From positions 1-34,637 of the forward strand of contig USPF01000022.1 of NCBI GenBank assembly GCA_900556555.1: 34,637 bases of DNA, written 5' to 3'. Shown piece after piece: positions 1-9,310 of this stretch. A program made the position numbers and the translations under genes. The DNA is from an uncultured Blautia sp. Lineage in GTDB: Bacteria; Bacillota; Clostridia; Lachnospirales; Lachnospiraceae. Each line of letters starts with the position of its first letter. Within the stretch, counting starts at the first letter, position 1. A model generated the notes under the pieces. It saw only the letters and a program-made list of their open reading frames with translations. It was not told the origin of the DNA and ran no database searches.

Positions 1-834
1 CTTCTCAAATACAAGCGTATTCTGCTTCGGAGGTTCCGGCTCTGAAGATTTGATTGCCAGAGAATATTCAATTACCTGTTTTCCTTCAGAAGTTAACTGT
101 ACATAATACGTAGTCTCTGGTTGCAATTTATCTGTACTGAACGTACTGGGTTTTCCTGAAGAATATGCGGCTTCCCAATCACCAATAAAAGTGATTGGTT
201 CTCCATATTCATCATATACGCATCCCTCTAGCCCCTCACTGTTCACTGTTTTATTGCTCAAAGTCAGGTAATAAGTAGTTCCCTGAACTTCTCCTGTTGT
301 AAAAGAGAACCAGTCATACATACCAGGATTATGACTGCCTGATACTTTCGTTCCCATAGGGAGCATTGCAGCATTGTTCTGATTAGTTCCCGGCACCAGC
401 ACACCATTCTCTGCAAGTACCGGTCCTCTTGCCTCCGTAAAGTTCCCAGCCGTCTTATATGCCGTGCTTTCACTGCCCGGATCTTTTACAATAATGGAAT
501 AATCAATCGTCTGTTCGCCTTCTGCTGACAGACAGATATAATACGTTGTATTCGGTTTCAGGTTATTGCTGGTAAAGGTACTGGGTACTCCTCCCCATCC
601 TGCCTCATCCCAATCACCAATAAAACTAAGCGTTTCTCCAAACTCGTCATATATTTTTCCCTCTAGCCATTCACTGCCTACAGTTTCATTTACCAGCGTA
701 ACCTTATAAGTAGCTCCTTCTTTCTCTCCTGTGGTAAATGCAAACCAACTGTAGCTTCCTGGGTGATACGTTCCGAATGCTTCCGTTCCCAGCGGTAAAA
801 GGATGGCATTCTCCTGATTGGTTCCCGGCACCAG
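1..834 (-). repeat. Tandem 435-bp coding repeat
   Basis: The 14-base string gttcccggcaccag occurs at 386-399 and again at 821-834, exactly 435 bases (145 codons) apart, and ccaatcaccaataaaa recurs with the same offset. The two units (400-834 and 1-399, the latter cut by the window edge) encode two near-identical domains of the lipoprotein. The exact period keeps the reading frame, so copy number could change without breaking the gene. Confidence 0.8.
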
Positions 835-1428
835 TTCTTTTCCCTGCTCTGCCTCTCTCTGACCAGACTCTTCTTCCGTAACCACTGAAACAGTTCCTGA
901 ACCGCTCATATTCTCTACCAGTAAGGTATAATCCAAAGTTTCTGCGCTTCTGGGATTCAGTCGGATATAATATGAAGTATTTTCCTCCAACTGCAAACCT
1001 GTCATGGAAGAACTTTGTCCATCTCCAGCCACATTCGTATATTTCAGTTCTGTATCTTCTCCATCAAACAAAGATGCCTGAAGCTCGCCACCATTTGAAG
1101 TTTGATTGGTAACGCTAATTTGATACGTTCCTCCGTTCTGTGTTGTCCACTTGTACCAGACTTCCTCTTCACTTTGAACAGTACCGGATTCTTCTGTTCC
1201 CTCCGAAATCACTGCTGCATTCTCTTTACTACTTCCCAACTCTATTTTTTCTGCCTTCTCTTCTTTCTTCTTACCACTATCCGATTTTTTCCCTGATGCT
1301 GAATCTGGCTCCTTTTCTAATGTCTCTAATCCTTCTTGGTCTGGCAGTTTTCCTGCATCCTTCCCACAAGCGGAACATGTCAGCACTGCGGTCAACCCCA
1401 AGACCAGCACCCATCTCGTTTTTCTCAT
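1..1428 (-). CDS. Repeat-containing surface lipoprotein (C-terminus beyond window)
   Basis: The reading frame is open for 476 codons from an ATG preceded by AGGAGG and runs off the left edge, so the protein is incomplete. The N-terminus is a short basic stretch, a hydrophobic segment and a CSACG sequence, so Cys21 is the likely lipidated residue. A Lys/Glu/Ser-rich linker (about 22-65) follows. Then come three beta-sandwich-like units (about 66-170, 199-310 and 344-455), each with a W(Y/F)xF/W core, a SLFD/IYDEFG/VYDEYG strand and a TTYYI-type strand before a Tyr-Ser-Leu ending. This resembles bacterial pre-peptidase C-terminal (PPC) domains. Units two and three are near copies; the first is divergent. 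Function is unknown; it probably sits on the outer face of the membrane. It lies 58 bases after the membrane-linked sigma factor gene and may be a target or partner of it. Confidence 0.75.
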   Translation of the reverse strand, partial: MRKTRWVLVLGLTAVLTCSACGKDAGKLPDQEGLETLEKEPDSASGKKSDSGKKKEEKAEKIELGSSKENAAVISEGTEESGTVQSEEEVWYKWTTQNGGTYQISVTNQTSNGGELQASLFDGEDTELKYTNVAGDGQSSSMTGLQLEENTSYYIRLNPRSAETLDYTLLVENMSGSGTVSVVTEEESGQREAEQGKELVPGTNQENAILLPLGTEAFGTYHPGSYSWFAFTTGEKEGATYKVTLVNETVGSEWLEGKIYDEFGETLSFIGDWDEAGWGGVPSTFTSNNLKPNTTYYICLSAEGEQTIDYSIIVKDPGSESTAYKTAGNFTEARGPVLAENGVLVPGTNQNNAAMLPMGTKVSGSHNPGMYDWFSFTTGEVQGTTYYLTLSNKTVNSEGLEGCVYDEYGEPITFIGDWEAAYSSGKPSTFSTDKLQPETTYYVQLTSEGKQVIEYSLAIKSSEPEPPKQNTLVFEK

Positions 1429-1461
1429 TTAAATTCCTCCTAGTTTTATTCTCTTACCTTT

Positions 1462-1490
1462 AAAGTATCTTGTTTTATTTCTAATGTCAA
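1462..1490 (-). promoter_or_regulatory. Possible promoter of the repeat lipoprotein
   Basis: On the minus strand TTGACA (1485-1490) is followed after 17 bases by TACTTT (1462-1467), a perfect -35 box with a weak -10 box. It overlaps the stop codon of the sigma-factor gene and lies just ahead of the lipoprotein start. The poor -10 means the lipoprotein may instead depend on read-through or on an activator. Confidence 0.4.
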
Positions 1491-3595
1491 GAAAGTATAT
1501 CGAGTCCACTTAAATCTGAAATACTTTTCCACTCAATAACCGTAGAATCATTACAAAACGCCTCATAGTCTGCATCTCCAAGGCGATATTCTTTCTCTGT
1601 ACCACCCTCAGTAAGTATCCCATTTTCCACACTAATCCGATAGATGGAAATGTCGCCTGTTCCCCGTGATATCGACTGCACACAGAATCCATATCCCTCC
1701 GGTGGCTGAATCGCATCAATAATCACCGTCACCTCTCCTGGAATCATCTTGAGACTACAGCCTTCTTCTTCCTGCTGACAACTATACACACGAATGTTAT
1801 TACACAAAAAAGGTCCTCCGTTATTTCCTTCTCCTACAACCAGATCCTGCACGCCGTCACCATCCATATCACAAAGAAAATAGCTATATTCTCCTGTCAG
1901 CGTTCCGACCTCCGAGGTAAATTTATATCCTTCTTCTCCATTCTGAACGGACTGTAAAACTTTTGCATAAACATCACGCATGGAAGATGTATTTCCTTCA
2001 GTCTTCTCCTGCATTTCTTTCTGTTCCCCTGCTATTTCTTCTTCAATCCTTACGATTCGGTATTTTCCATCTTCGCCAGGATGAAGCGTAGCTTTTTTAT
2101 TTTTCTGATACTCCTCCCTCCTGTCAAAATTCTTGTAATAATAAGTATAAAAAATCCTTATTTCATTTTCCTCATACTCTGACGATGTAATCTGGACACT
2201 GGCAGTATGCCCCATGGTAGACGGAATAAATACCACCTTGTCGCCCTGTACATAAGCCCCGTTTGGTGCTCCCTTTGTGTTTTCCTCGGACATCTGATAT
2301 GTAGTAAATGATGAAAGCATCCGATTGACATCTTCCAGAGAATACATATATTCCCACTGGCTGTTCGTTCCATAATATTCTATCAATCCAGACTCATTAC
2401 TTCCTCCCTCGCAGAGCAGATTGATAATTTGTACATATTCTTTTTCTGAAAATCCCTTTTCTGGAATTTCCTGAGGTCCATAAGCAAGAATATGTTCCAT
2501 TTCTTCCCGTGTGACGCCATTTCCAATCAATGCCTGATACTCTTCTTCCGTCAACTCTCGAACTTCCGGCTCTGATTCAGGAGGTATTTCCTGCGAAATC
2601 TCTGGAATGCTCTCTTTGTCAGCTTCCGGATTGGCAGGAGTCTCTTCCATCACTTCTTCTATCCGCCCTGCCTCCTGTTCTGCCGCATTCTTCTCCTGAT
2701 ATGCATGGAATACTCCCACACAAATAGCTGCACACACAACCGTAAGAGAAACGGCAGTCACCGTAAACTTTCCTACCGCAGTATGAAGAAATGCTTTTTT
2801 TACTGTGCTTCCGGCTGCCTTATCTACCGTATCTGCAACTTTCCTTCCACCAACAGAATTTCCCTTTTGTCTCTGAGTCTTGGACTGAGAAAACAATTCA
2901 GAAAGCAATTTTGTCTCCAACTGTCCCTGTCCTAATTCCAGCAATCCTTCTGCTGCCAGATATTCTGCATCTGTACGAAGAAGATACAAAAGCAACGGCA
3001 ATGGTGCCAGACCGTAGAGCTTGTATCCCTTCTTCTGCAACTCTTCCGCCCGCTTCTTAATATTCTTTCTTCCATAGTTCAATCGGGATTTTACCGTATT
3101 CTCTGAACAATTCAGAGCTATAGCAATCTCACGAATGGGAATCCCTTCAATCTCATACATCAAAATACAAACTCTCTGCTCTTCAGACAGTGCATCGATG
3201 ATTTCATGCACAAGCTCCTGGGTTTCTCTTCTTGTATAGGACAATTCCGGCTGATAGTCTGGACTCTCGTCTTCCTGTTCGTATAAAAAAGAAACATCTT
3301 CTTCCTCCTCTGTTATCTCTGAAAACAAAAGGGGATTCTTTTTTTGCAACATATTCTTTGCTGTGTTTCCAACAATCTTACCAAGCCACCCTGCAAATGC
3401 TTCTGGCTGCTCTAGCGTGTCCAATCTTGAAAATGCTTTCATATATGCTTCCTGCAATACATCCTGTGCCGCATCTTCGTTCTTCATATATTGGAGGGCT
3501 AAATAGTATTTACTTTTATAAGTTGTTTCATATAAGAAACAATATCCTTCCTCTCTGCCTTGTTTCGCTAACGCAACAGCTTCACGATAATCCAT
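1487..3595 (-). CDS. ECF sigma factor fused to a membrane helix and outside domain
   Basis: The N-terminal ~190 residues are an ECF (sigma-70 family) sigma factor. Region 2 contains NEDAAQDVLQEAYMKAF, and region 4 a helix-turn-helix with IPIREIAIALNCSENTVKSR. A ~75-residue linker leads to one membrane helix (about 277-299), then a Glu/Pro-rich stalk and an extracytoplasmic domain to residue 702. The outside part has a DMDGDGVQDLVVG segment (about 576-588) like the calcium loops of FG-GAP/VCBS repeats. Ordinary ECF factors are under 200 residues, so this is a sigma-sensor fusion with no separate anti-sigma factor. I chose the ATG at 3595 because GGAAGAGG lies 8 bases upstream; a GTG at 3619 has no good ribosome site. 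It follows the PrsW-like protease and the zinc-ribbon protein on the same strand. The sigma and membrane calls are firm; release by proteolysis is inference. Confidence 0.88.
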   Translation of the reverse strand: MDYREAVALAKQGREEGYCFLYETTYKSKYYLALQYMKNEDAAQDVLQEAYMKAFSRLDTLEQPEAFAGWLGKIVGNTAKNMLQKKNPLLFSEITEEEEDVSFLYEQEDESPDYQPELSYTRRETQELVHEIIDALSEEQRVCILMYEIEGIPIREIAIALNCSENTVKSRLNYGRKNIKKRAEELQKKGYKLYGLAPLPLLLYLLRTDAEYLAAEGLLELGQGQLETKLLSELFSQSKTQRQKGNSVGGRKVADTVDKAAGSTVKKAFLHTAVGKFTVTAVSLTVVCAAICVGVFHAYQEKNAAEQEAGRIEEVMEETPANPEADKESIPEISQEIPPESEPEVRELTEEEYQALIGNGVTREEMEHILAYGPQEIPEKGFSEKEYVQIINLLCEGGSNESGLIEYYGTNSQWEYMYSLEDVNRMLSSFTTYQMSEENTKGAPNGAYVQGDKVVFIPSTMGHTASVQITSSEYEENEIRIFYTYYYKNFDRREEYQKNKKATLHPGEDGKYRIVRIEEEIAGEQKEMQEKTEGNTSSMRDVYAKVLQSVQNGEEGYKFTSEVGTLTGEYSYFLCDMDGDGVQDLVVGEGNNGGPFLCNNIRVYSCQQEEEGCSLKMIPGEVTVIIDAIQPPEGYGFCVQSISRGTGDISIYRISVENGILTEGGTEKEYRLGDADYEAFCNDSTVIEWKSISDLSGLDILS

Positions 3596-3737
3596 GTTTT
3601 TCACCTCTTCCTTCTCCACCTTGCTTTTTTCTCACTGATTTATAAATTTCCATTTTTACTTTTTCATCCTCCTGATATGCTTTCATATCTTTACAAAATA
3701 ATTGAATAAACCATTGAATTACATTTCCGTTCTTCAT
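3582..3737 (-). CDS. Possible 51-residue leader ORF overlapping the sigma gene
   Basis: A frame of 51 codons opens at ATG 3737 and closes with TGA 13 bases inside the sigma-factor gene, so the sigma gene's GGAAGAGG ribosome site lies in its 3' end. The product is Trp/Phe-rich at the N-terminus (VIQWFIQLF) and Lys/Glu-rich after. The ATG is only about 7 bases past the expected start of the 3751-3780 promoter, so it has no room for a ribosome site from that transcript, though read-through from the upstream genes would supply one. It could couple translation or be chance. Confidence 0.25.
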   Translation of the reverse strand: MKNGNVIQWFIQLFCKDMKAYQEDEKVKMEIYKSVRKKQGGEGRGEKHGLS

Positions 3738-3750
3738 CTGTCTCATCTCT

Positions 3751-3780
3751 CTTATACTACTAAGACTGCTCCCATGTCAA
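3751..3780 (-). promoter_or_regulatory. Sigma-A promoter ahead of the membrane-linked sigma gene
   Basis: TTGACA (3775-3780) and TATAAG (3751-3756) are separated by 18 bases on the minus strand, a near-consensus housekeeping promoter. It lies in the 210-base gap after the zinc-ribbon gene, where no terminator is visible, so the sigma gene may have both its own promoter and read-through. A GATATG/CATATC hairpin followed by AGGAGG lies in the leader. Confidence 0.6.
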
Positions 3781-3841
3781 TATTTAGTACAATTAAACTG
3801 AGATTTTTCCCGTCTTAACTTATGCTATTATTTCAAAATTT

Positions 3842-4630
3842 TCAACCCAGGCCGAGACAAGCATAAATAAGTGCATTCAGATCTAACACAGGTACCCATT
3901 CTCCATTTTCTTTTACAATATTGATTGCAAAATCCTTCACAATCCAACAGGAACTAGCCCCCGCCTCATAATAATCATCTGACGACTGTGTCAGCATTTC
4001 AGCAGCCAGCTGTGATTTATCTGAAACCAGGTCCCGGGCACCCTGCACCACAGTACCAATAAGCCCTTTGTCATACCTTGCTTTGAACAGTTCCACTGCC
4101 CGGGCTGCCACACGACCATTATCCAGATTCGCTATTCGCACATGTGCTTGATAATGACCGAACTCTACCCTTTCCACATCTATCACTTCATACTCCAGAT
4201 GGCGTATCATGGCATGATAGATATCTAGCACATCTTCTCCACTCACAAACTGGAGAAAAAAATTGGATATTGTTTCATTTCCTACAATCTGAGGTACGAC
4301 CTGTACTAAAATCTGCTCTGCCGTCTGAACATCCATGCCGTTTTGAACCTGTGCAAATTTCCCCTCTATTGTAGCTGTGATTGCCTTTTCCATCACCTTC
4401 TGATATCCAAAATACCCCACTACTAAACTGACACTCAACACAAGTGCTATCCAGAATCTTTTCTTTGACCTCGCCCGTGGTTTCCGGACTTTTTCCCTTC
4501 CAGACAGCTGTGGCTTTGCTTCCATCTGACCGTCATCCCGTTTTGAACTATCTGCTCCAAATTGTTGTCCGCAGTAAGGACAAAATTCTGCCTCAACTTT
4601 TATTTCTTTTCCGCAATTTCCACAAAACAT
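3842..4630 (-). CDS. Zinc-ribbon single-pass membrane protein
   Basis: The protein of 262 residues starts with a zinc ribbon (MFCGNCGKEI; Cys3, Cys6, Cys17, Cys20), followed by a basic Ser/Lys/Arg linker and one membrane helix at about 60-80. A ~180-residue domain follows, predicted outside the cell, that I cannot assign; it resembles DUF-type extracytoplasmic domains often joined to zinc ribbons in Firmicutes. I chose ATG 4630 because AGGAGG stands 9 bases ahead and because translation from there begins exactly at the ribbon; an upstream in-frame start at 4675 lies within the previous gene. The ribosome site overlaps the last codons of the protease gene, so the two are probably translationally coupled. 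Its ribbon resembles that of the protease. Confidence 0.8.
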   Translation of the reverse strand: MFCGNCGKEIKVEAEFCPYCGQQFGADSSKRDDGQMEAKPQLSGREKVRKPRARSKKRFWIALVLSVSLVVGYFGYQKVMEKAITATIEGKFAQVQNGMDVQTAEQILVQVVPQIVGNETISNFFLQFVSGEDVLDIYHAMIRHLEYEVIDVERVEFGHYQAHVRIANLDNGRVAARAVELFKARYDKGLIGTVVQGARDLVSDKSQLAAEMLTQSSDDYYEAGASSCWIVKDFAINIVKENGEWVPVLDLNALIYACLGLG

Positions 4631-4634
4631 ATAT

Positions 4635-5807
4635 CTATTCCTCCTGTACGTTCTTTTTTCTCTTGCTGACCTCATGTAGACCCTTGGTAATAAGCGTTAA
4701 CAAAACAATCCAAATGACAACTATACAAAAAATAAATTTGCAATAACGCATCCGAACATTCTGCTCGAATAAAGGTGAATCCCAAAAAGCATGAAGTACA
4801 ATGGGTACCCAGACAATCTTTAAAAATGTCGACTTTGCCAAAGTCTCCCAGCCAAATTCTGCTCCTTTCATTGCAAGAATGATTGCGAACCCTTCCACTG
4901 CAGCCCAAGCAATATGACCTCCCGGAGAGAGAAAACCACGCAATTTTACAATATCAAGCATCTTTATATAGAAAAAATCTAACAGATAATTCAAATCTCC
5001 TGTTGTTTGAAGTGCATTCAACACACCCTCGTTAATCCCAAAATACAATGCATATCCCACTGACTCAAAAACTGCAAAACCTGCACCTACCGCTCCACCA
5101 TACAAGATTCCATTGAGCAAATACAATTTTCCTTTATGTTTACTGATAAAATACGCACAAATCCCTATCTTACCGATTTCCTCCACAATTCCAACTACAA
5201 CCGCTCCTGATATATTAGAAATATCTGAATTTGGTGCAATTCCGAAAAGCATTAGCGTAAAAAACAAAGACGCAACCCCTCCTACAAAAAACACTTTAAA
5301 CGTCTTAATCATACTAACATTTCTTGGTACGTTCGTCTCAAAGAAAAACACTAGAATTGTTATGGGCGCAATCAAGGTTCCAATGTACGGTATATTCATA
5401 AGTGCATAGGGATTCCCCATATTCTTCCACATCAGTGTAAGGGCAAAGTAAACTATCATCAGTAAAACAAACACCCTGCTATATAACCATGGTTTTGGCC
5501 ATTCGGTTAAAATCTCTGATTCCGCAGGCGTGGTTTTGCTTGTCCCACAAATAAACAATTCTTCGGCCTCTTCCGCCGTATGATGTTTCAGCACTCCCGA
5601 AACCATATCCCTCAGATGAAGATCCAGTTTCCCTTCCCAGCCTACAAACTCATTCAGTTTAGAAGTAACTCCTCTGCTTCTTCGATTTTGCTCACCTCCG
5701 GTTTGCCAGCTCCTGTTATCCCCGGCAAAGCTCAGCCGTTCCCCACACTTGTGACAAAATTTTTGAGAGTCATCTGTAATTTCTGTTCCACATTTTTGAC
5801 AAAACAT
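4635..5807 (-). CDS. Zinc-ribbon PrsW-type intramembrane metalloprotease
   Basis: A 390-residue multi-pass membrane protein of the PrsW family (PF13367). All four family motifs are present: EEIGK (Glu209-Glu210), FE (247-248), a His in GGHIAW (His298), and HAFWD (His339, Asp343). An N-terminal zinc ribbon (Cys3, Cys6, Cys18, Cys21) and a ~75-residue cytoplasmic linker precede the first helix near 110. In Bacillus and Clostridioides PrsW makes the first cut in an anti-sigma factor, freeing an ECF sigma factor. Here no separate anti-sigma is encoded; the nearby sigma factor is itself tethered to the membrane. GAGGAGG precedes the ATG. The family is certain; the substrate is inferred from gene order. 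The ribbon fusion is seen in some clostridial PrsW relatives, and its ligand is unknown. Confidence 0.9.
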   Translation of the reverse strand: MFCQKCGTEITDDSQKFCHKCGERLSFAGDNRSWQTGGEQNRRSRGVTSKLNEFVGWEGKLDLHLRDMVSGVLKHHTAEEAEELFICGTSKTTPAESEILTEWPKPWLYSRVFVLLMIVYFALTLMWKNMGNPYALMNIPYIGTLIAPITILVFFFETNVPRNVSMIKTFKVFFVGGVASLFFTLMLFGIAPNSDISNISGAVVVGIVEEIGKIGICAYFISKHKGKLYLLNGILYGGAVGAGFAVFESVGYALYFGINEGVLNALQTTGDLNYLLDFFYIKMLDIVKLRGFLSPGGHIAWAAVEGFAIILAMKGAEFGWETLAKSTFLKIVWVPIVLHAFWDSPLFEQNVRMRYCKFIFCIVVIWIVLLTLITKGLHEVSKRKKNVQEE

Positions 5808-5890
5808 CTTTTATCCTCCTCTTGTAATTTTATTCATTTTCGCACCCATTCACAATCTGTTTAGCAACTATCTTCTTGGGTTCTATAACT

Positions 5891-5916
5891 TAGACAACTC
5901 TCGTTCTAAAAAAGTT
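5891..5916 (-). promoter_or_regulatory. Candidate ECF-type promoter before the PrsW-like gene
   Basis: The minus strand reads AAAAC-TTTTTT, then 17 bases after AAC, TGTCTA (5891-5896). This approaches the Firmicute ECF pattern (TGAAAC-TTTT, 16-17 bases, CGTCTA). An overlapping TTTAGA-17-TATAGA reading as a weak sigma-A promoter is an alternative. If ECF-type, the locus could activate itself. The rest of 5808-5984 is AT-rich with no gene. Confidence 0.35.
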
Positions 5917-5984
5917 TTATTTTTTCAAAAATTTTTTTTAATTTTTTTGTCCAAAATATATAACATATTCATCTTTTCAATCAC

Positions 5985-6027
5985 AAAAAATTTGACGGCC
6001 ACACAGCCCTAATACTGTATGACCGCC
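5985..6027 (-). terminator. Rho-independent terminator of the PBP/MBL operon
   Basis: On the minus strand a 13-pair stem (GGCGGTCATACAG with CTGTGTGGCCGTC, including a few G-T pairs) closes an 8-base loop and is followed by AAATTTTTT. It lies directly after the metallo-beta-lactamase gene. Confidence 0.85.
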
Positions 6028-6037
6028 ATCTCATGTT

Positions 6038-7210: not shown

Positions 7211-9310
7211 TTATTGCATCTGATTCCAGATTTCCACATCTTTATTCACCACATAACCACTGCCGCCTCTGCCTTTGACATCTTCCACCATATTCAGCAT
7301 CAGCACCGTATCCTCCTCTGACACATCAGTATTGTACACAGCAAACCATCCCAGTTCTGTTCCGTTTTCATCCTCCTGACTGGCTTTAATTTCTGCTGTT
7401 CCGGTCTTTCCAGCCAAAGTTGCCCCTGTTACCTTAGAAGCTGCATATCCGGTTCCGTTTGGATTACTTACTACTTCTTTTAAATCCTCATAAACTGTTT
7501 TCGCTGCTTCTGGGGTAAAGACTCCTTCTGCCCAGTAAGATGCGGCTTTTCCTTCTTCGTACTCCAGATAAGGGGCAATCATATTCCCTTCATTAAAGAA
7601 TGCTGAATACATACATGCCAGATGCAAAGGGTTTACCAAAATCTGTCCCTGTCCGTATCCACTGTCCGCCAGCTGAATGTCTGATTCTATGGTTTCTGAA
7701 TTGGAATATTGGGAAGAAGTCATCCCAATATCAAAAGGAATATCCTGTCTAAAACCAAGCTTATCCAGTTGCTTTGCAAGGCTGTCTGCACCTATCTTCA
7801 ACGCTGTTTTTGCAAAGTAAATATTATCGGAATAAATCAGGGCATTTTTTAACACTGCCTGATCATAGGTATGGAGAGTGGTCACTTTATAATTTCCCCA
7901 GCTCTCATCCTTCTGCCAAGAAAGTCCGCTGGCTCCAAAATCTTCGTCTTCCGTAATGGCTCCTGTTGTCAGTCCAATAGCCCCGATAATGGGTTTAAAA
8001 GAAGAACCCGGAGCCCAGGTCTCTCTTACGCGGTTGTACATAGGCTTGTTTTCATCATTGTTCAGCACGTCCCAGGTTTCCTGAGACATCCCCACAATAA
8101 AATCCATGGCATTATAAGATGGTGTAGATACCAGTGCAAGCACTTCCCCGGAAGTAGGGTTCATCACCACAGAACAGCTTTTATCCTCCTGATATGCCTC
8201 ATATAGCTTCTGCTGCCAGCGAATGTCAATGGTCAGCTTAATATCTTCCCCGTCTTCTGCCGGTTTTACAGCAAGTGCCTGTTTTTCTTCTCCCTGCTGG
8301 TCTACAATGGCAATGCGGTAACCTTTCTTCTCTCTTAAACGCTCTTCATAGAGCTTCTCAAGACCGCTTTTTCCAATGATGCTCTGCTCATTATAGCCCT
8401 GGCCTTTCCTCTCTTCCAGTTCCTCTGCCTGAATCTGCTGCACATACCCCAGCAAGTGTGACGTACACTCCCCATAAGGGTAAACCCTGCTGTCTGCTTT
8501 TGAAATTAAAACTCCCGCATGCTCCAAAAGCTTATCCTGAATACTTCCTCCCGGCATGCTTCCGTCTTTGGCTTTATAGGGCTGGTCTAACTGCTCCTGT
8601 GTCATATTTTTCAGCGGGACAAAACTGTCATCCTGAACCCAGGAAGCATCCAGTTTGGCCTGAATAGAATCTTCTGTTGTTCCCAAAATTTCTGCCAGAG
8701 CCTTGATATCTTCTTCTGCCTGAATGTTCATTTTTCCCGGAACAAGTCCCACAGATTCAACCGTTCCTTTTCTCGCCAAAAGCACATCATTCCTATCATA
8801 AATACTGCCCCTCTCGGCTTCCACAGAAGATACACGCACCTTGTCTTCCCTTCCCAGTTCAGGGAAAATCACAGAATCCTCCCATACAAGATGCCATTTT
8901 CCCTCTTCTTTTTCAAAGAACGTATCTGTATCATATGTAATCTCCCCTGCAAGGGTATTCATACTCACCCGGTAGGACAATGGCTGGTCTTTGTCCTGTT
9001 CTTCTGGTATATCCAACTGAATGTCTGAGGCTTCAATACCTTCATATATATTTTTATTTCTGGTAACAAAATCTTCCTCGCTGATTGTTTCTTTTGAACC
9101 TTCATCCAGAAGTTCATACATTTTCTCATATTCTTTTTTCTCAATATATCCCATATATTCTTGTATTGCCTGCTCTCTGGTCTGAGCAGTTAATTTTTTA
9201 TAAAGTAAAATGCCTGCTGTTGCTGCGGATACTAAAATAACAGCACCGGCAATGGTAATGATTATCTTTTTCTGCTGTCTTTTTCTTTTTTTACTCTTTT
9301 TTTTGGTCAT
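7211..9310 (-). CDS. Class B penicillin-binding protein, MecA/PbpC-like
   Basis: A 699-residue D,D-transpeptidase that cross-links peptidoglycan outside the membrane. A basic N-terminus and membrane helix (about 16-37) are followed by an NTF2-like MecA_N domain (about 42-155, ending WEDSVIFPELGREDKVRV), a PBP dimerisation domain (about 160-320) and the transpeptidase domain. Catalytic motifs are complete: SSFK (436-439), SDN (494-496) and KTG (635-637). The layout is that of Staphylococcus PBP2a and Bacillus PbpC, which are low-affinity or accessory enzymes; resistance cannot be read from the sequence. CAGGAGG lies ahead of the ATG. The promoter carries a palindrome of BlaI/MecI/CopY operator type. 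No blaI, blaR or beta-lactamase gene is in the window. Confidence 0.93.
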   Translation of the reverse strand: MTKKKSKKRKRQQKKIIITIAGAVILVSAATAGILLYKKLTAQTREQAIQEYMGYIEKKEYEKMYELLDEGSKETISEEDFVTRNKNIYEGIEASDIQLDIPEEQDKDQPLSYRVSMNTLAGEITYDTDTFFEKEEGKWHLVWEDSVIFPELGREDKVRVSSVEAERGSIYDRNDVLLARKGTVESVGLVPGKMNIQAEEDIKALAEILGTTEDSIQAKLDASWVQDDSFVPLKNMTQEQLDQPYKAKDGSMPGGSIQDKLLEHAGVLISKADSRVYPYGECTSHLLGYVQQIQAEELEERKGQGYNEQSIIGKSGLEKLYEERLREKKGYRIAIVDQQGEEKQALAVKPAEDGEDIKLTIDIRWQQKLYEAYQEDKSCSVVMNPTSGEVLALVSTPSYNAMDFIVGMSQETWDVLNNDENKPMYNRVRETWAPGSSFKPIIGAIGLTTGAITEDEDFGASGLSWQKDESWGNYKVTTLHTYDQAVLKNALIYSDNIYFAKTALKIGADSLAKQLDKLGFRQDIPFDIGMTSSQYSNSETIESDIQLADSGYGQGQILVNPLHLACMYSAFFNEGNMIAPYLEYEEGKAASYWAEGVFTPEAAKTVYEDLKEVVSNPNGTGYAASKVTGATLAGKTGTAEIKASQEDENGTELGWFAVYNTDVSEEDTVLMLNMVEDVKGRGGSGYVVNKDVEIWNQMQ

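Follow-up and report, generated by a model that had tools for sequence, protein, structure and literature searches.

The 34,637-nucleotide contig analysed here, called the window below, comes from an uncultured Blautia sp. of the Lachnospiraceae (GenBank assembly GCA_900556555.1, contig USPF01000022.1). On its minus strand it carries a run of genes around an extracytoplasmic function (ECF) sigma factor that bears a membrane helix of its own: prsW (5807-4635), a zinc-ribbon gene (4630-3842), a small open reading frame (ORF; 3746-3582), the sigma gene (from 3595, or 3619, to 1487) and a lipoprotein gene that starts at 1428. The domains and gene order given in a first-pass annotation of this DNA were all recovered in Pfam matches and ORF coordinates, with two adjustments. 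PrsW, described there as the neighbour of the sigma factor, is on the same strand but not directly adjacent, since the zinc-ribbon gene intervenes; the surface lipoprotein is present, but its start at 1428 falls outside the span that had been assigned to the system, and its gene runs off the window. Two features had been overlooked there, the conserved small ORF and a promoter-like element at 5889-5920.

The membrane-tethered sigma factor (1487..3619, minus strand) can be read from a GTG at 3619 (710 aa) or an ATG at 3595 (702 aa), and its homologues start at the equivalent of the ATG rather than the GTG. It is an ECF sigma factor. The models for sigma2 (Sigma70_r2, PF04542; 3338-3535, minus strand) and sigma4 (Sigma70_r4_2, PF08281; 3053-3217, minus strand) are matched with 35.9 and 50.9 bits, respectively (cut-offs 24 and 25.7), and the 14 Pfam families that match the protein at E<=1 include no sigma3 or region 1.1 model and no zinc-finger family. 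Beyond these domains lie a conserved post-sigma helix (residues 197-223, motif GYKLYGxAPLPLLLYLLR), an HTxxGK motif just ahead of the membrane helix (the two together at approximately 2708-2785, minus strand) and two outside domains (2030-2563 and 1490-1987, minus strand). The single hydrophobic helix covers about residues 285-304 of 710, with approximately 405 residues beyond it, and in the near-identical homologue P0001 it is found at 285-303 in window numbering. A search in which the 7989 candidates sharing most words were scored gave 1497 homologous clusters at E<=1e-10, and a hydrophobic helix past residue 205 is present in all 120 homologues listed, the best 120 of the 1497, which confirms the description of a sigma factor with its own membrane helix and an outside domain of about 400 residues. 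The sigma part and the post-sigma4 helix are the best conserved, followed by HTxxGK, and the linker and outer stalk are variable. The AlphaFold model (predicted local distance difference test, pLDDT, 72.9; predicted template modelling score, pTM, 0.36) gives high confidence to most of the sigma part and to the outside domains at about 350-530 and 545-710, with values below 50 at 229-349. In structure searches residues ~7-205 clearly match ECF sigma factors such as SigW, SigE and AlgU; the outside part was barely covered, and the rows it gave, NTF2-like ones among them, were weak.

In a sister class of membrane-tethered ECF sigma factors (L018, L020, L021, L022, L024, L026, L028, L029) a zinc ribbon is joined to the protein at its N terminus or close to it. 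Direct fusion, which speaks in favour of the operon model proposed below, was counted at 7 of the 17 sigma places in the 250-genome search described below, a figure that misses L026, in which the ribbon sits after an over-long start. In three genomes tethered sigma factors have small zinc-ribbon proteins (L079:7641-8453, L086:7995-8492, L089:13537-14031) as direct neighbours or at a distance of up to about 2 kb; these have one to several ribbons, preceded by an N-terminal part that looks helical.

The PrsW-family (M82) intramembrane protease (4635..5807, minus strand; 390 aa, about 8 membrane helices) scores 68 bits with PF13367 (cut-off 23.5); with the PrsW equivalog NF033739 it scores 36.1 bits, short of the cut-off of 225. 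Four motifs, which we take to be the catalytic motifs of the family, are intact and are conserved in 99-100% of the 120 listed homologues: EExxK (residues 209-213; 5169-5183, minus strand), ExxxY (residues 248-252), H298 (4914-4916, minus strand) and HxxWD (residues 339-343; 4779-4793, minus strand). The annotation of a PrsW with all its catalytic motifs thus holds. At its N terminus (residues 3-21) the protein has a zinc ribbon, the four cysteines of which are kept in 97-98% of the same homologues.

Among 87 PrsW loci fetched, 12 carry an ECF sigma factor that is free of a membrane helix (L146, L154, L158, L161, L162, L166-L169, L171 and L172, with L126 as a simpler case). The cassette common there consists of the sigma factor, a small two-helix protein, a multi-helix protein, PrsW, another two-helix protein and a large secreted or surface-like protein, which suggests a separate PrsW/ECF system. 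A custom hidden Markov model (HMM) missed 24 of the 87 loci, and neighbour counts there are therefore lower bounds.

The next gene (3842..4630, minus strand; 262 aa) encodes a zinc ribbon, a single membrane helix and an outside domain that may be NTF2-like. Its ATG at 4630 follows the PrsW stop codon by 4 nt, in keeping with the coupled zinc-ribbon membrane protein of the first reading. The cytoplasmic part comprises approximately 55 residues and is mostly disordered in the model past the ribbon. Proteins of the TcaA/YvbJ type have a cytoplasmic zinc ribbon, one helix and an outside domain, and the window protein shares this layout; it differs in scoring far below the cut-off of the TcaA model NF053815 (14.8 vs 550 bits). 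When single proteins of the window were compared with genome contigs, 12 related loci were found, which matched mainly at the zinc-ribbon end. In one predicted protein (P0242, 376 aa) a partial PrsW end is joined in frame to the zinc-ribbon protein. A ribosomal frameshift fusing the two genes was considered and rejected: in the frames of the window it would have to be a +1 shift, so that P0242, of which the protein sequence alone was available, is more simply explained by an A run shorter by one base.

Ahead of the sigma gene is a small ORF (3582..3746, minus strand) of 54 aa, or 51 from the second ATG, which overlaps the sigma ATG at 3595 by 14 nt. Its consensus is xxIxWFxRLxxxDMxxYxExxxKxxIYxxxRKK. 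Counting 23 sigma places in all, it precedes the sigma gene at 7 of the 8 closest loci (the window, G032, G041, G256, G257, G474 and G779), was not found in a search at the eighth, G855, and is present at 2 of the 15 more distant ones, namely C24 of G166 and, by tblastn, G158 (L023), where the sigma gene is broken. A tblastn search of all loci gave no place below E 0.05 beyond these eight outside the window. The copies in G041 and G158 were recovered although neither had been a query or seen before. Seven cores were aligned ungapped in the coding frame, a procedure that biases a frame test towards it; this frame has 0 stops and a BLOSUM mean of 2.12, and the other five frames have at most 0.87 and 5-16 stops. 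Differences at the three codon positions number 303/268/396. For G256/G257 the nonsynonymous and synonymous rates (dN/dS) are 0.23/0.97, and dS exceeds dN in 9 of 9 unsaturated pairs, dS being saturated in 12 of 21 pairs. By these sequence comparisons the small ORF is conserved and coding. It has no match in NCBIfam, and in Pfam one relative gave one insignificant match (E 0.08). Its product may be a short anti-sigma factor or a peptide for docking, or the ORF may be a coupling leader.

This bears on the earlier statement that no anti-sigma factor is encoded here. For known families it stands: no anti-sigma Pfam family was found in the scanned window proteins (E<=1, <=0.1 or <=1e-5), a scan that excluded three long ORFs, short ORFs and those overlapping others. 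As a safe claim it is weakened, because a conserved small ORF precedes the sigma gene; this ORF and the zinc-ribbon protein are both candidates.

Ahead of prsW lies a promoter-like element (5889-5920, minus strand), consisting of ATAAAACTTTTT at 5909-5920, a 12-nt spacer and TGTCTAAG at 5889-5896. In G032, G474, G779 and G855 the tethered sigma gene is closely preceded by the pattern ATAAAACTTTTT-N11/12-TGTC[TC][AT]AG, and for three of these four genomes the absence of PrsW was shown. In 1.64 Mb of loci, duplicates included, the strict pattern has 9 matches at 5 distinct sites, the four just named and the one ahead of prsW in the window. Since visual inspection of these sequences first brought up the pattern, the window score and held-out loci provide the fairer tests. 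A weight matrix built from the four sites outside the window gives the window site 30.5 of a maximum of 31.9. The next separate site in the window scores 20.1, the highest value in 20 two-base-block shuffles is 19.6, and that in 99 background loci, mostly other PrsW loci (1.13 Mb), is 21.0. Four of 11 held-out sigma loci exceed this background (G041, 28.3; G135, 27.2; G257, 22.8; G256, 21.8), with the element placed 32-62 nt before the gene that opens the run leading to the sigma factor. The element is read as the predicted promoter of the sigma gene itself, which in the window would drive prsW first. In G032, G474 and G779 the -10-like half of the element stands a short distance ahead of the small ORF; at that place the window has AGTCTTAG (3760..3767, minus strand) and no -35-like half. 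This sequence is possibly a relic of a former sigma promoter, or a second promoter.

A terminator-like stem-loop (5993..6028, minus strand), with a 15-pair stem followed by a T run, closes the preceding gene, a ComEC-like metallo-hydrolase; the prsW unit below it therefore probably starts afresh. Four terminator-like sites were found in the window, compared to 3.0 expected from shuffling, and the other three are 5-pair stems within genes between this stem-loop and the lipoprotein. The gap between sigma and lipoprotein genes yielded no terminator-like site, and the lipoprotein is probably in the same unit as the sigma factor. Because the element precedes the sigma gene in four other genomes but prsW in the window, PrsW, the zinc-ribbon protein and the sigma factor look like a single unit under a predicted sigma-type promoter. 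An Rfam scan of the window gave 0 matches, and a scan for consensus sigma-70 promoters gave 8 sites vs 11.2 expected, which is not used as evidence.

Linkage in relatives was assessed from the longest-contig figures of protein clusters, identical figures being sought across the lists of sigma, PrsW and zinc-ribbon homologues. Contigs of 96046 and 11185 bases are common to all three lists, 22471 and 6262 to sigma and PrsW, 12315 to sigma and the zinc-ribbon protein, and 7790 to PrsW and the zinc-ribbon protein. As a control the lengths were shifted by 1-300 either way (600 shifts). The four sigma/PrsW coincidences compare with a mean of 0.54 and were reached in one shift of the 600; the three each for sigma/zinc-ribbon and PrsW/zinc-ribbon compare with means of 0.015 and 0.017 (maximum 1). 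With two cuts chosen after the data had been seen, the top 16 PrsW matches gave four coincidences against at most one in the shifts, and contigs above 10 kb gave three against at most two. The identity of contig-sharing members to the window's proteins is 38-82%; the PrsW matches among them rank 2, 3, 9, 11 and 16 of 120 listed. Equal length indicates the same contig, not adjacency, but 6262 and 7790 bases leave little room.

Several observations weigh against PrsW as the regular partner of the sigma factor, beginning with the indirect nature of this same-contig evidence. In 250 genomes of one family (Lachnospiraceae according to the record) a sigma match at E<=1e-40 was found in 14 genomes at 17 places, and PF13367 in 65; five of the 14 also have a PrsW somewhere, and at none of the 17 places does the contig carry one at a distance of 50 kb or less. 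In the large genome searches for sigma and PrsW, the best 2-4 candidates per genome were scored, so that matches may be missed. PF13367 (E<=1e-3) was found in none of the six genomes searched that carry the closest sigma relatives (G032, 47% sigma identity; G041, 54%; G256, 53%; G257, 55%; G474, 50%; G779, 46%). In G041, G257 and G474 the sigma locus is on a single contig of 2.6-3.3 Mb, about genome size, and the absence there is thus no assembly gap. At G855 (45%) no PrsW lies within the 19 kb fetched. Conversely, none of eight relatives of the window PrsW found in 397 genomes has a sigma-HMM match within the 7-19 kb fetched; downstream of those in G130 and G295 lie genes for zinc-ribbon + helix proteins, and some sit, by eye, among kinase- and phosphatase-looking genes. 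No signature in the juxtamembrane stalk of 20 sigma sequences splits PrsW-linked from unlinked members, and at 7 of the 11 held-out sigma loci the matrix scan gave no element above background. PrsW relatives of 38-40% identity in records labelled Staphylococcus and Listeria phage (L175:3378-4625, L176:479-1618) are also solitary, with no sigma or zinc-ribbon partner within the 6.5-8.5 kb fetched.

These last proteins have an N terminus that lacks the zinc ribbon and in one of them looks GYF-like; the phage collection searched with PrsW gave five unannotated records, and the phage-labelled ones are likely misfiled host DNA. The plasmid collection gave no match to the sigma factor, and no related locus was found in viral contigs.

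In the sigma tree, PrsW-less G779 falls in a supported (95) group of 24 rows together with the window, P0002 and P0004. The PrsW labels require two changes, a number as low in 18 of 500 shuffles, which is not striking; in a larger tree all labels require five, as low in 44 of 200. P0001 was labelled PrsW-linked in this test as the window's own protein, not by contig sharing.

Co-occurrence of tethered sigma factors with PrsW had been put forward in the first-pass annotation as a check on its proposal of a compact one-component form of regulated proteolysis. The outcome is divided. Linkage recurs on contigs of relatives, the tether is conserved in all 120 listed homologues and the predicted promoter appears to be shared, all of which favour the proposal; as a defined PrsW-dependent system it is not supported, because the six searched genomes of the closest sigma factors carry no PF13367. 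PrsW is an optional, lineage-specific accessory to the tethered sigma factor.

In the SigW-RsiW-PrsW-RasP system of Bacillus subtilis, PrsW cuts a separate anti-sigma factor, RsiW. The window resembles it in having an ECF sigma factor, a PrsW-family protease, a proposed helix-anchored substrate and a presumptive site-2 protease step. It differs in that the helix belongs to the sigma factor itself and the scanned window proteins include none of a known anti-sigma family. A mechanistic precedent is IutY (ECF243) of Pseudomonas putida, an ECF sigma factor that acts in iron-siderophore signalling; it is fused C-terminally to a membrane-bound anti-sigma part and undergoes stepwise proteolysis by Prc and RseP (PMC8999054). 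Activation of membrane-fused ECF sigma factors by proteolysis has been shown for IutY and is expected for ECF48, ECF52 and ECF53 (PMC8999054). The comparison of IutY with the window protein is one of mechanism, not of sequence group; both are membrane-fused, release by cutting is only proposed for the window, and section 3.5.3 of the source mentions no PrsW, zinc-ribbon partner or small ORF for IutY (PMC8999054). In the actinobacterial groups ECF48, ECF52 and ECF53 the protein is extended at its C terminus by as many as ~400 residues, which contain one or two helices and, in SCO4117 of Streptomyces, an outside carbohydrate-binding domain (PMC8999054). They share with the window sigma factor and its 120 listed homologues a membrane helix after sigma4. 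The extension is reported to include a zinc-finger domain, of which the window protein has no match, and the same section describes no PrsW for these groups (PMC8999054). The present case thus differs from other membrane-fused ECF sigma factors in having PrsW in the unit, a zinc-ribbon partner, a small ORF and no known anti-sigma domain in the fusion. A literature search of titles and the beginnings of abstracts, from which the main ECF classification paper was missing, found no publication on an arrangement of tethered sigma factor, PrsW and zinc-ribbon protein.

We propose an autoregulated operon, ordered promoter, prsW, zinc-ribbon membrane protein, small ORF and tethered ECF sigma factor, probably with the lipoprotein, from which the sigma factor would be freed stepwise, with PrsW the likely first cutter and positive feedback. 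We consider this model evenly balanced between right and wrong. Promoter function, cleavage, the pairing of protease with substrate and feedback are all proposals. The sigma factor's own helix would anchor it in the membrane, and its outside part would be the sensor. A first cut outside the membrane, in this lineage most likely supplied or boosted by PrsW, would be followed by a second cut by a site-2 protease and by cytoplasmic trimming, and the zinc-ribbon partner with its possibly NTF2-like domain may set where or when PrsW cuts. If PrsW is made from the sigma factor's own predicted promoter, positive feedback would follow; as PrsW is absent in some relatives, another first cut would be required there. 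M50 site-2 proteases are present in all seven relatives' genomes, and in 14 of 14 controls as well, being near-universal. By analogy with IutY, release of the sigma factor by proteolysis is likely. That PrsW acts on the sigma factor itself is plausible but a little doubtful. A more elaborate proposal of self-amplifying proteolysis, in which the sigma factor, through a promoter type dedicated to it, drives its own PrsW and zinc-ribbon sensor, a new family of micro-proteins (about 32-54 residues) translated from the shared message holds or escorts it, and PrsW is a plug-in ahead of an older stand-alone sigma factor, would be unlikely to hold in all its parts.

The leading alternative, itself unlikely, is that the zinc-ribbon protein is the true partner or substrate of PrsW, as a sensor or anti-sigma-like brake, and that other proteases release the sigma factor, which merely shares the operon. 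The 4-nt gap between the two genes would fit, as would the layout of a PrsW substrate, with a metal-binding part inside, one helix and a folded outside domain. In G130 and G295 PrsW relatives occur with a zinc-ribbon/helix gene and no sigma factor within the 7-12 kb fetched, and at G855 the sigma gene is followed by such a gene with no PrsW within the fetched region. However, the cytoplasmic part is short and mostly disordered past the ribbon, the protein lacks an anti-sigma Pfam match, and a search with the full HMM did not place it near any of the other seven closest sigma genes.

It is rather improbable that the product of the small ORF is the brake, an anti-sigma or membrane-docking peptide from the same message, with the tether only placing the sigma factor or letting the outside domain displace the peptide. 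The ORF is coding by frame and by dN<dS, overlaps or closely precedes the sigma start at nearly all of the closest loci and at two more distant ones, and its product is moderately amphipathic (hydrophobic moment 0.42-0.74, a value that has no control set). It is missing, however, at G855 and, at E<2, at 13 of 15 more distant tethered sigma factors; it resembles no known family and could be a translation-coupling leader.

About as improbable is a sigma factor that works in place at the membrane with no proteolysis, a change of shape being relayed through the helix. Conservation of the post-sigma4 helix and of the juxtamembrane HTxxGK motif, and the frequent lack of PrsW, are consistent with it. 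Against it, a membrane-bound sigma factor would presumably reach nearby promoters only, and the linker, predicted to be disordered (229-349) and poorly conserved at 246-273, is unlike a signal-passing rod. The membrane-fused ECF sigma factor studied, IutY, is freed by cutting (PMC8999054). Finally, that PrsW is a general protease sitting by chance in this place is very improbable: PF13367 is common in the family and lies within 50 kb of none of the 17 sigma places, but prsW is preceded by a sigma-type promoter-like element and contig sharing recurs, two three-way cases included.

The lipoprotein (1..1428, minus strand) begins 58 nt after the sigma gene and has repeated beta domains with a weak PPC-like match below cut-off. 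Two genes ahead of the PrsW unit is a PBP4(5)/PBP2a-like transpeptidase with a MecA_N domain (7211-9310); its matches to the named families listed fall short of their curated cut-offs.

If the proposed autoregulated operon is correct, gut Clostridia would hold a large class of tethered sigma factors, 1497 homologous clusters by the count given above, in which sensor, anchor and transcription factor are merged. The predicted promoter would then be a way to read the regulons of tethered sigma factors from sequence, and the small ORF would be a concrete missing part. The patchy occurrence of PrsW would allow the same tethered sigma factor to be compared with and without the protease.

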